From NCBI GenBank assembly GCA_018302815.1, contig JAGVZE010000007.1, forward strand, positions 1-64,000: a stretch of 64,000 nucleotides of DNA, written 5' to 3'. How positions within the stretch are numbered: the first letter of the stretch is position 1; each line of letters begins with the position of its first letter. Below the pieces are notes generated by a model. The model was given only the letters and a program-made list of their open reading frames with translations. It had not been told where the DNA came from and did no database searches. A program made the position numbers and the translations under genes. The DNA is from Candidatus Woesearchaeota archaeon. GTDB lineage: Archaea; Nanobdellota; Nanobdellia; Woesearchaeales; ARS49. Shown piece by piece: positions 7,500 to 51,982 of this stretch.

Positions 7500-7571
7500 G
7501 GCGAGGTAGCCAAGCGGCTAAGGCAGCAGGCTGCAACCCTGCGATTCAGGAGTTCGAGTCTCCTCCTCGCC
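7500..7571 (+). tRNA. tRNA-Cys (GCA)
   Basis: The acceptor stem pairs GGCGAGG (7500-7506) with CCTCGCC (7565-7571). The D-arm is GCC...GGC, the anticodon stem GCAGG/CCTGC encloses CTGCAAC with anticodon GCA, and the T-arm is AGGAG-TTCGAGT-CTCCT. CCA is not encoded. The 3' 44 bases (7530-7573) recur exactly at 7714-7757. Confidence 0.95.
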
Positions 7572-7573
7572 TT

Positions 7574-7713
7574 CAAACTTTCAGAAAGTTTGATCAAATC
7601 GCTTCTCGTATCGTCTCGAGAAGCAATTTATCAAATATTCGCTTTGCGAATATGTAAATGACTCTTCTCTCGACTCCACGAAGTCGCGAAATCAGGTCTT
7701 GAAACGTCATAAC
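7574..7713 (+). mobile_element. Hairpin-rich ~140-bp insert between tRNA-Cys and a copy of its 3' half (element copy 1)
   Basis: Three hairpins are visible in order: AAACTTT/AAAGTTT (7575-7591), CTTCTCG/CGAGAAG (about 7604-7625), and ATATTCGC-TTT-GCGAATAT (about 7634-7652). After them comes ATGACTCTTCTCTC. The same layout and much of the sequence recur at 50672-50797. It encodes nothing. The flanking 44-bp direct repeats of the tRNA 3' part point to insertion at the tRNA. Whether the element is mobile DNA, a structured RNA or both is open. Confidence 0.55.
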
Positions 7714-7757
7714 GCTGCAACCCTGCGATTCAGGAGTTCGAGTCTCCTCCTCGCCTT
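7714..7757 (+). pseudogene. Duplicated 3' part of tRNA-Cys
   Basis: This is a perfect 44-base copy of 7530-7573, from the anticodon loop to two bases after the tRNA. The D-arm, the 5' acceptor strand and a promoter are missing, so it is not a tRNA gene. It looks like an attachment-site remnant left by insertion. Confidence 0.8.
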
Positions 7758-32902: not shown

Positions 32903-34189
32903 TTACCTTGGCAGGGACTCCTTGAACTGCATCGCCTTACGCTGGAGCAGCTCGCGCAGGTCAGGGTCATTCTGCACCCACTCAAGGAACGGGCTCTTAA
33001 CGTTATTTGCGGGTTTGTCTGCCTCCTCAATCTTACTCTTCAACGCAAGGGAGGGGTCAACAATCTCAGCACACTTGCAACAATAGAGCGCATTAGCGCT
33101 GTTAATCTCTTGACAGCGCGGGCACGCCCGCAATTGCGGCTTGTACGCTATTGGTTTCTCTCCCGGCTTCAAACCGTTTATACGCAGAATGTCTTCATCC
33201 AAGTCCTTGCCAGAGATGTGAACATACATTGCAGGCATACGGCTCCCCTGAATCCAACCAAAATACGAATTCATTTGAAATTCGGTCAAATGCCGTGCAA
33301 GCTGAGAAGCTCGCGAATGCCTGAAAATATAAGGATGACAACGCTTCTTCAAGCCAACTTTCTTGAATGTCTCAATCAGAATCTTACGAATTCCCTCATA
33401 CGTTGTTTGCTTGTGGTAGTCTTTCGTTCCGATGTTAATCCAAAGTGGCGCGTTTGGGTTTTCTTTGTCAGGATGAATGTCGAGCCACCTCAACAAGTAA
33501 GGTGTTGCTGAAATGACTCGCAGTCTGCGCCGTCCAGTTTTGCCAGAAACAGTCAAGACCGTGCCGCTCGCATCAACATGAACTTGCCCAATCGTGAGAT
33601 TGCCAATCTCACCAACTCGCGCACCACTTTCCGCAAGAATGGCAATTACCGCTTTGTTGCGTGGATGATCCGCTGTAGCAATTATCTTGTTAACCTCATC
33701 TTCCGAAAGCAATTCTGATTCATTCGTCAAAGGTTTCTCTTTGTGCGGAATCGTTGTGCAAATCCACTTCACAATTTTTGGATAGTCTTCACCATCTAAC
33801 CAGCGATAGAACTGTTTCAGTATGACTTTAACGTCGTGTTTTGTCCATACTGAATAATCGCTGATTTCAAAATGGTGCACAATTTGCTTCATGTCCTCAG
33901 TTGTGGCTTCTTTGAAGGGTTTGCCAAGCATATCACCAATAACGGCAAGGTTACGCACCAGCTTGATTAATCGCGCAAAACCAACGCCATCAGCCTTGCA
34001 GTCGCGAGCAAAGCGCTCTACGAGCTGCTTATCCGCTTCCTGCATCTTCGACTTCCAAAGGCGCGTAAACGAAGTCTGATACTGCTTCGCAAAATGGTGG
34101 TAGTCTGTCGTATCCATGTTTGGTCTCCAGACTCTCGCACCAATCCATTCAATCGTTTGCTTGTTGTCCACGTCAATCATAGTGTCCAC
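32903..34189 (-). CDS. Tyrosine recombinase (integrase) with C-terminal zinc ribbon
   Basis: The 428-residue protein has a SAM-like core-binding domain at about 50-135 and a catalytic domain. Arg191 (ESGARVGEIGN), Lys217 (VSGKTGRRR), Arg290 (PYIFRHSRAS), Trp312 (FGWIQG) and the nucleophile candidate Tyr322 (MYVHISGKD) are visible. The usual HxxR has Tyr/Phe in place of the first His. A zinc ribbon (CPRCQ at 356, CCKC at 370) and a short helical tail follow. It sits 205 bases from the 3' end of tRNA-Thr, the common archaeal integration arrangement. Confidence 0.88.
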   Translation of the reverse strand: MDTMIDVDNKQTIEWIGARVWRPNMDTTDYHHFAKQYQTSFTRLWKSKMQEADKQLVERFARDCKADGVGFARLIKLVRNLAVIGDMLGKPFKEATTEDMKQIVHHFEISDYSVWTKHDVKVILKQFYRWLDGEDYPKIVKWICTTIPHKEKPLTNESELLSEDEVNKIIATADHPRNKAVIAILAESGARVGEIGNLTIGQVHVDASGTVLTVSGKTGRRRLRVISATPYLLRWLDIHPDKENPNAPLWINIGTKDYHKQTTYEGIRKILIETFKKVGLKKRCHPYIFRHSRASQLARHLTEFQMNSYFGWIQGSRMPAMYVHISGKDLDEDILRINGLKPGEKPIAYKPQLRACPRCQEINSANALYCCKCAEIVDPSLALKSKIEEADKPANNVKSPFLEWVQNDPDLRELLQRKAMQFKESLPR

Positions 34190-34393
34190 GCGTTGTTATC
34201 AACTTTGTATTGCAAAGCAATATACAAGCTTTGTAGACCAAAACGGTACCACAAAAGCCTTGTCCGCATAACGTGCAGACAGAAATTAAAGCGTTCACGG
34301 ACTTTCGTAGGACAACTTCAAGCAACTGCTTGAGGACAGAAAAACACCGCTCGTTCTTCTGCCCTTGTGTGGGCTTACGAACGGGGTGCTCAA

Positions 34394-34464
34394 GCCTCCG
34401 GAGGGATTTGAACCCTCGACCCTCTGCTTACGAAGCAGATGCTCTGCGACTGAGCTACGGAGGC
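34394..34464 (-). tRNA. tRNA-Thr (CGT)
   Basis: Read on the minus strand, the acceptor GCCTCCG pairs with CGGAGGC, the D-arm is GCTC...GAGC, the anticodon stem TCTGC/GCAGA encloses TTCGTAA with anticodon CGT, and the T-arm is GAGGG-TTCAAAT-CCCTC. It starts four bases after the stop of the small zinc-ribbon gene and may be processed from that transcript. Its 3' side faces the recombinase. Confidence 0.94.
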
Positions 34465-50566: not shown

Positions 50567-50671
50567 CTATTTAGACGTCATAATCTCAATAACATCCCTG
50601 TGCTTTAGGAACGTGTCCCGGCCAATCTTACGCCTTGTTTTCACGTCAACTGCCGCAACGAAGTTCTTTTG
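50567..50671 (-). pseudogene. Detached 3' end of a YchF-like GTPase gene
   Basis: Read on the minus strand it encodes QKNFVAAVDVKTRRKIGRDT, then FLKHRDVIEIMTSK and a stop: 34 codons of the end of the GTPase at 50798-51982. Only two residues differ (Leu to Phe, Asn to His), although the DNA differs at about 14 places, mostly silent. A 40-base core is identical (50610-50649 and 50841-50880). It ends next to the stop of the GGDEF gene. Confidence 0.88.
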
Positions 50672-50797
50672 CAAACTTTTAGAAAGTTTGATCAAAAGCG
50701 CTCTTCATCTCGATTCGAGAAGCAATTTCATAAATCCCTTCTTTGAAGGGATGTTTATGACTCTTCTCTCATCTTGATGATGTCGCGCGACTCAGTC
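50672..50797 (+). mobile_element. Hairpin-rich insert beside the GTPase 3' end (element copy 2)
   Basis: Aligned with 7574-7713, it has AAACTTT/AAAGTTT, then GATCAAA, a TCTCG/CGAGA-type hairpin ending GAGAAGCAATTT, the hairpin ATCCCTTC-TTT-GAAGGGAT (sequence differs, pairing kept), and ATGACTCTTCTCTC. It is non-coding. It lies exactly between the detached and the intact GTPase 3' ends. Confidence 0.6.
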
Positions 50798-51982
50798 TCA
50801 TTTAGAAGTCATTATCTCAATAACATCCCTATTCTTGAGCAACGTGTCCCGGCCAATCTTACGCCTTGTTTTCACGTCAACCGCTGCCACAAAATTCTTT
50901 TGAAGGTCGGTATGAATCCTTCCTGCGAAATCAAACGCAGTGCTTCCCGCAGGCAACAAGAAACAATCAGGCAAAATGTTGCCGTGAGCGTCACCGAGCT
51001 TTCCTACACCGCCAGGGAAAATCGCTATCATTTTAAGCATCTCAAACACTGCGACATCAAGCGCTTTCTGCACGCCTGTTCCTTCCCATTTGTCAAGAAC
51101 ATTCTTCTGGATGAATTCAAGCGCGGCCTTCTGCTTATCCGATAACTGGCCTGACATCTCAAATGACGTGCTGCCCGGAATGTACTTTATGAGACCCTTG
51201 CTCGACGCCTCTTTTAAAGCGAGCTCAGACTCAGCGCTAACCGGCACGAAAACATAATCAGGGAACAACTTCTTGCAACGCTCAAGATTCTCCTTCGACT
51301 GAGGAATATCCATCTTGTTCGCGACAATAACCATAGGCTTAGTCTTTTTACGAATATGAACCGCCAAGGAATGCAATTGCTCCTCAGTCCAAGTCGAAGG
51401 CTTCGCAGGATCCATCTTAAGAGTATTAAGCCCCAACTTAACAAAAGATTCATCAACCTTAAGGCCCGACACCTGCCTTGCGAGCGCAGGAACCGCCCCG
51501 CCCTCGTGCTCAGACTGCCTTGCAATCCTATCCCAACCCTTCTTGATAATGCTCAAAATCCACATATCAACTTCAATCTCAAGAAAACGAATATCAAAAG
51601 CAGGATCGCCAGTGCCAACAGGCTCGCCACGCTCATTTGTGCTACCGCTCATATCCACAACATGCAAGAAAACATCAGCCTGCCTTAAGTCGTCAAGGAA
51701 CTGGTTGCCCATACCCTTGCCCTCATGAGCTCCAGGAACCAAACCCGCGACATCCATCACGTCAATATTAACAAATCTCGTGCCGTTAACGCACATTCCA
51801 ACCCTCGGATTGCACTGCGCATTAAGCTCTCTATCAACACACTGAACCCTCACGAACGCGACACCATGATTCGGCTTAATAGTCGCAAAAGGATAATTCG
51901 CGATAAGAATATCAGCTAATGTGAGCGCCTTGAAAAACGTCGACTTTCCAACATTAGCCTTACCAACTATTCCCACTAGCAT
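50798..51982 (-). CDS. YchF/Obg-like GTPase, archaeal Ygr210 type
   Basis: The 394-residue protein has P-loop GIVGKANVGKSTFFKALT, the switch region NYPFATIKPNHG, DVAGLVPGAHEGKGMGNQFL and VANKMDIP (in place of NKxD). It ends with a TGS-like domain (HGNILPDCFLLPAG, AFDFAGRIHTDLQKNFV). These P-loop proteins act near ribosomes and hydrolyse ATP or GTP. The last 35 codons have a second copy downstream, beyond a hairpin element, so the 3' end may have been replaced. Confidence 0.92.
   Translation of the reverse strand: MLVGIVGKANVGKSTFFKALTLADILIANYPFATIKPNHGVAFVRVQCVDRELNAQCNPRVGMCVNGTRFVNIDVMDVAGLVPGAHEGKGMGNQFLDDLRQADVFLHVVDMSGSTNERGEPVGTGDPAFDIRFLEIEVDMWILSIIKKGWDRIARQSEHEGGAVPALARQVSGLKVDESFVKLGLNTLKMDPAKPSTWTEEQLHSLAVHIRKKTKPMVIVANKMDIPQSKENLERCKKLFPDYVFVPVSAESELALKEASSKGLIKYIPGSTSFEMSGQLSDKQKAALEFIQKNVLDKWEGTGVQKALDVAVFEMLKMIAIFPGGVGKLGDAHGNILPDCFLLPAGSTAFDFAGRIHTDLQKNFVAAVDVKTRRKIGRDTLLKNRDVIEIMTSK

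Follow-up and report, generated by a model that had tools for sequence, protein, structure and literature searches.

How did the end of an intact tRNA-Cys gene come to lie twice, without a mismatch, around a short non-coding insert in an archaeal genome? The source assembly comprises 1.55 Mb in 26 contigs, and the window analysed here is the first 64,000 nucleotides of one of them, contig C26. Each repeat consists of the last 43 nt of the tRNA gene plus one T, and apart from this exact 44-nt pair the tRNA-Cys region has no long direct repeat; at a spacing of 184 nt, chance cannot account for the pair. Likewise, the insert is structured as the original prediction had supposed, its 140 bp (7574-7713) folding far better than shuffled sequence both as RNA (z = -4.2 on the plus and -4.7 on the minus strand) and as DNA (z = -4.9 and -5.8).

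We regard it as established that the insert belongs to a family of tiny, non-coding, mobile elements whose 3' junction is fixed and whose target duplications are long and differ in length. We give about even odds (roughly 0.5) to the fuller reading that it is one copy of a gene-free, non-autonomous, probably single-stranded-DNA hairpin family of one family-level group of DPANN (Woesearchaeota-like) archaea. A non-autonomous element had been one of two suggestions made from the sequence, and the analysis supports it; for the other, the remains of something larger, no sign of a larger decayed element was seen. In its conserved orientation the element reads along the minus strand from 7693 to 7574, and its terminal hairpin adjoins the intact tRNA-Cys, leaving the right-hand repeat as the orphan. 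We denote by X the sequence that follows the 3' hairpin, and by X' the sequence before the element's 5' end that X copies; X always abuts the hairpin. In the window copy the first six nucleotides of X (7573-7568, AAGGCG, followed by A at 7567) all equal the tRNA-Cys sequence, and the 5' part of the insert includes a semi-conserved AGACCT(G). A search of Rfam with five copies and their flanks, at E values up to 1, returned tRNA matches only and no known RNA family.

Table 1. The two element copies of the window and the sequences flanking them
Feature	Position	Strand	Description or evidence
tRNA-Cys(GCA)	7500..7572	+	intact, target gene; ARAGORN and Rfam
Direct repeat X	7530..7573	.	abuts 3' hairpin, part of working tRNA
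Terminal 3' hairpin	7574..7592	-	CAAACTTTCTGAAAGTTTG; 8-bp stem, 3-nt loop
Conserved element core	7574..7693	-	120 nt; model R1 match, 136 bits
5' part of insert	7694..7713	-	between orphan repeat and model start
Direct repeat X'	7714..7757	.	orphan, exact copy
X of second copy	50569..50671	.	orphan 103-nt copy of GTPase gene's 3' end
Second element copy	50672..50792	-	93% identical to copy at C21:33040
X' of second copy	50800..50902	.	3' end of working GTPase gene (Obg/YchF-like; minus strand, gene body rightwards)

Distribution, targets and unoccupied sites

Four further copies of the insert, 74-79% identical to it, are present in the same genome; the five, two of which lie in the window, occupy five different targets. 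In the second window copy X and X' agree at 92 of 103 nt, and the differences fall mostly at third codon positions. A covariance model (R1) recovers 59 copies, about 120-185 nt long across the family, from 13 of the 26 genomes of the source's taxonomic family. Wider scans, which covered 353 genomes from the order and a phylum-wide sample of 371, added a single carrier with one copy, G191, from another family; filters are stricter in scans this large, and weak copies may be missed. Contigs of two public assemblies, uncultured archaeon LFW-252_3 and Woesearchaeota LacPavin_0920_SED4_MAG_42_9, which probably represent two of the carriers, contain the core. One exact core pattern found no match in the viral contigs scanned with it. 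The nearest relatives of a copy come mostly from its own genome.

The terminal hairpin pattern alone (TTTGATCAAACTTT..AAAGTTTG) fails as a marker of the family; it is widespread in archaea and clostridia, and most matches are something other than the element. The same hairpin also lies inside apparent tRNA introns of several archaea (L018, L056, L074, L087). A second, different scaffold, ending in the same TTTGATCAAAC-type hairpin (or TTTAATCAAAC), occurs at two loci of one Woesearchaeota assembly (L110, from about 7784, and L117, with the hairpin at 2865 of the minus strand); there the hairpin is followed by a piece of a tRNA that is repeated nearby. On a Micrarchaeota contig (L036, around 4810) three copies of a piece of a tRNA 5' end are separated by short hairpins of this type, which looks as though a hairpin by itself might be enough to bring the duplications about.

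Thirty of the 59 copies are flanked by an X/X' pair of 18-103 nt, different at each place, of which the shortest are the least certain. Among the targets that have such pairs are tRNA genes and protein-gene 3' ends, where the element usually begins a few nucleotides past the stop codon. tRNAs antisense to the element are Cys (twice), Gln, Ala, Ser, Gly and Ile, and one copy lies upstream of a same-strand tRNA-Thr. According to Pfam, the genes directly before an element include those for FtsZ, SecE, ribosomal protein L6, DNA topoisomerase, an Obg/YchF-like GTPase, a metallo-beta-lactamase protein and a RIO kinase, the last being the sole one among these neighbours for which no X/X' pair was detectable. 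Copies at other tRNA genes had been correctly anticipated. The expectation that the repeat is the usual trace of a tRNA-specific integrase was not upheld, since the element also sits at protein-gene 3' ends and at a 5S rRNA gene, and each copy is flanked by duplicated local sequence and not by a single att core of its own. A classical integrase scar was set aside because every copy has its own target.

The 5S target is that of G191, where two copies of X follow the gene's 3' end with a second, different hairpin element between them. At that locus (L221, 1200-1700) a copy of the 5S 3' end, altered at one base, comes after each of the two different hairpin elements behind the 5S rRNA gene. A tandem arrangement at secE (L072, 15-310, minus strand) comprises the gene, the element, the repeated gene end and a second element with a different 3' end.

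Insertion is shown by unoccupied sites in relatives. Six related genomes carry tRNA-Cys with neither repeat nor insert, namely G013, whose gene is 97% identical to that of the window, G008, G001, G004, G005 and G011; G023, congeneric with G013, has the element at its tRNA-Cys. In genus g3, elements lie behind secE and two other genes of G017, and the homologous places in G002 are unoccupied. The arrangement at tRNA-Cys is therefore not universal among relatives, and copies of the insert are many elsewhere, in keeping with the insertion originally proposed. An assembly artefact, or a simple tandem duplication that placed the tRNA end on both sides of an unrelated hairpin, is hardly credible as the origin of the locus: the genome is a draft of 26 contigs, but in 13 genomes, with contigs of the two named public assemblies among them, this core is found with local duplications at many unrelated sites.

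Junctions and the folded form

Alignment of X with X' indicates where the element ends. At positions 0-5 after the hairpin the two disagree in 20, 27, 47, 30, 37 and 17% of pairs; at position 6 they never do (0 of 30), and over most of the remainder disagreement is about 7-8%. Position 6 of X is A in 43 of 59 copies, against a local A content of 25%. Eight pairs match at only one to three of the six positions and agree well thereafter; at the tRNA-Cys of G023, for example, the six nucleotides are TAATGG and the other copy reads AATAAC. Given that disagreement is confined mainly to positions 0-5 and absent at position 6, the element end seems to consist of the hairpin plus six nucleotides (N6), joined to the target just before an A. 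Agreement of the six with the target is partial: over all pairs, 4.2 of the 6 positions equal the copy's own target, compared with 1.6 when tails are swapped between copies. Closely related copies do not share them, and inheritance of the six from a parent copy is unsupported. The 5' junction, the gap and the length of the duplication all vary among copies.

A second kind of difference is seen at some coding targets (L003, L005, G017:C115 and G019:C11), where mismatches between X and X' fall mainly on third codon positions, partly clustered towards the ends. In G017:C115, X resembles the sister genome near the element and X' resembles it further away. A lone duplication whose orphan then decayed freely would not produce this pattern. 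We read it as later recombination with element-free strains; hybrid att sites or selected recoding may account for it instead.

The fold is strongly conserved. Among the 59 aligned copies 91% of cells hold standard pairs, and 32 of the 35 pairs show compensatory changes on both sides. Covariation scores 0.444; shuffles reach 0.149 and slid partners no more than 0.089. The alignment was fitted to the model, which raises the score, though hardly by enough to explain the margin. The main stem includes tandem G.A steps. In RNA, G-U is tolerated far better than A-C, a distinction that a structure acting as DNA need not make. Among 1873 cells, after removal of two weak pairs, G-T or T-G was counted 31 times and A-C or C-A 24 times, whereas a control on tRNAs of these loci (acceptor and T stems) gave 19 G-T to 4 A-C among 288; the best-scoring copies alone lean slightly to G-T (6 to 2 of 658), numbers too small to decide. 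Because the two mismatches are about equally rare in the element, the selected form is probably DNA and not RNA, a conclusion held with moderate confidence given small numbers and a crude tRNA control. Pairing of an internal guide with X, in the style of bridge RNAs, gave no convincing signal among some 2,500 column pairs.

Mechanism, candidate enzymes and competing explanations

How could such an element move? The working form would be single-stranded DNA with a long stem containing the G.A steps and a terminal hairpin. An enzyme supplied in trans would recognise the hairpin and join or extend the 3' end of the element at the N6^A junction, the six nucleotides presumably pairing in part with the target. 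The other end would then be joined a variable distance downstream, leaving the duplication; the gene would stay intact because joining downstream leaves it a duplicated end. A tyrosine recombinase, a HUH nuclease or replication-fork priming could each take part. Besides the slight G-T lean among the best-scoring copies, too few to decide, three points go against this scheme. Contrary to a simple tail model the six nucleotides are not inherited between close copies, the third-position clusters need an extra step such as recombination with other strains, and no partner enzyme was found among the families tested, none of which clearly follows the element.

Acting in trans is most likely because no gene recurs among those compared beside the copies and no tested family clearly tracks the element. 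Y1 transposases (Y1_Tnp) occur equally often in carriers and non-carriers, 3 of 13 each, and show no association. Reverse transcriptases (RTs) differ: seven of the 13 carriers encode them, compared with one of the 13 non-carriers (one-sided Fisher p about 0.015, for one of five protein families compared). This correlation favours a SINE-like RNA retroelement, in which an RT acting in trans would copy the element RNA at a nicked target by target-primed reverse transcription and leave target-site duplications of variable length; the fixed 3' end, the variable 5' end and the long, variable duplications would all follow. We nevertheless consider it unlikely. Motif reading suggests that the RTs (RVT_1 in Pfam) look like those of diversity-generating retroelements (DGRs), and no element-like end lies beside any of the RT loci examined, on which grounds RT was set aside as the partner. 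Six carriers have no RT, and although some of these are incomplete, G005 stands at 99% completeness; moreover, the stems show no preference for G-U over A-C.

DGR-like RTs occur in many genomes of the taxonomic family (L262-L273: G017, G000, G004, G019, G012, G013, G007, G001), several of them beside Asn-rich template-like repeats; G000 has two partial RTs at contig ends (C15, C20).

Quite improbable in our estimation is a tyrosine recombinase that integrates a minimal circle made of the element and a gene-end copy, with X' as attL, X as attR and the synonymous differences as hybrid att sites. The 3' ends of tRNAs and genes are classical integrase targets, the pairs at L005, L003 and G023:C8 have differing ends around an identical core, and tyrosine recombinases are frequent, with eight matches in the source genome, one of them in the window at 32903-34195. 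However, they are frequent in element-free genomes as well (11 of 13 carriers, 8 of 13 non-carriers). Each copy has its own target and would need its own att site each time, related copies within one genome have no common core, and several duplications are identical throughout except for the six nucleotides.

The recombinase of the window (minus strand, 430 aa) adjoins a tRNA-Thr (34393-34464); it is related to archaeal XerA, well below the cut-off, and has a long C-terminal part. In contig C72 of G017 a relative is found roughly 1 kb away from a copy of the element and the local tRNA-Thr.

Less credible again is RNA-guided homing, in which X would be a guide beside its scaffold and X' would escape cutting through changes in the seed, like a natural home-and-rescue gene drive. 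X/X' differences are indeed concentrated beside the hairpin, in several genes at successive third codon positions; at G017:C115, X agrees with the sister genome at the altered seed positions, and the targets are conserved genes. The hypothesis is weakened because the nuclease is missing, TnpB/Cas12f profiles (PF07282, TIGR01766) having no match over the cut-off in carriers and a single weak PF07282 match in G007, because a constant motif 5' of X' was sought and not found, and because the odd copy is sometimes X, as in secE and the L6 gene. In several pairs, for instance at tRNA targets, three to five of the six nucleotides are changed and the remainder is identical, which exceeds what escape needs, and here too there is no excess of G-U.

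Returning to the single-stranded hairpin, we propose tentatively, and with somewhat less than even confidence, that it represents a new class of mobile element: gene-free hairpins of about 120 nt that insert as single-stranded DNA at N6^A behind conserved genes and, by priming or joining, copy 18-103 nt of the gene end so that the gene stays working. If confirmed, this would point to a new insertion chemistry in the little-studied DPANN archaea, account for partial repeats of tRNA and gene ends otherwise taken as integrase scars, and provide a concrete substrate (hairpin-N6-A) for an enzyme search.

Comparison with known systems

The family is apparently undescribed; a literature search, of incomplete coverage, found no description of it. 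A gene-free body of about 120 nt, a fold that selection seems to maintain in the DNA, a constant 3' junction and long duplications of variable length at conserved gene ends are not known to us to occur together in any prokaryotic mobile element, and the insertion mechanism matches none of the transposon families tested. SINE-type retroelements are likewise short and non-coding, with a constant 3' end, a variable 5' end and target duplications of variable length, but here no partner RT sharing the 3' end was found at the RT loci examined, the pairing pattern suggests DNA and the duplications reach 103 bp. MITEs and the palindromic elements derived from IS200/IS605 are also tiny, non-coding, hairpin-ended and presumably mobilised in trans. 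The present element differs in lacking classical terminal inverted repeats and in showing no association with Y1 transposase. IS200/605 insertion is not known to produce a target duplication; the 18-103 nt found here are neither short and fixed nor absent. The guide RNAs of OMEGA/TnpB and type V systems share a folded scaffold and a terminal hairpin followed directly by target-derived sequence, yet the carriers have no TnpB/Cas12f match over the cut-off, there is no constant adjacent motif and the pairing is not RNA-like.

Integration of the pNOB8/SSV type and the insertion at a Caldiarchaeum tRNA-Thr, which spans 1,868 bp and has a predicted recombinase gene (PMC3293823), resemble our locus in that a piece of a tRNA is directly repeated around an archaeal insert. 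The Caldiarchaeum case differs in size, gene content and range, the present insert being 140 bp long, gene-free and found at many different targets; unlike tRNA-specific integrative elements in general, the element encodes no recombinase and its related copies have no common att core.

The attC sites of integrons, archaeal ones included, are folded single-stranded DNA sites that usually lie just behind a stop codon and are most alike within one genome (Ghaly et al. 2022, PMC9668308). Copies of the element, too, probably act as folded DNA, usually lie just past a stop codon at protein genes and are mostly most alike within a genome. By eye, the terminal hairpin of the element reads CAAAC/GTTTG, not the attC consensus RYYYAAC...GTTRRRY. 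In contrast to attC, the element is dispersed at resident genes and not arrayed in cassettes, it has a second, terminal hairpin and duplicated gene ends, and the sequence after its hairpin varies. Every family tested, attC excepted, possesses at least one tested defining feature that the element does not. Taken together, the element resembles SINEs in its ends, and attC sites or IS200/605 elements in its folded DNA.
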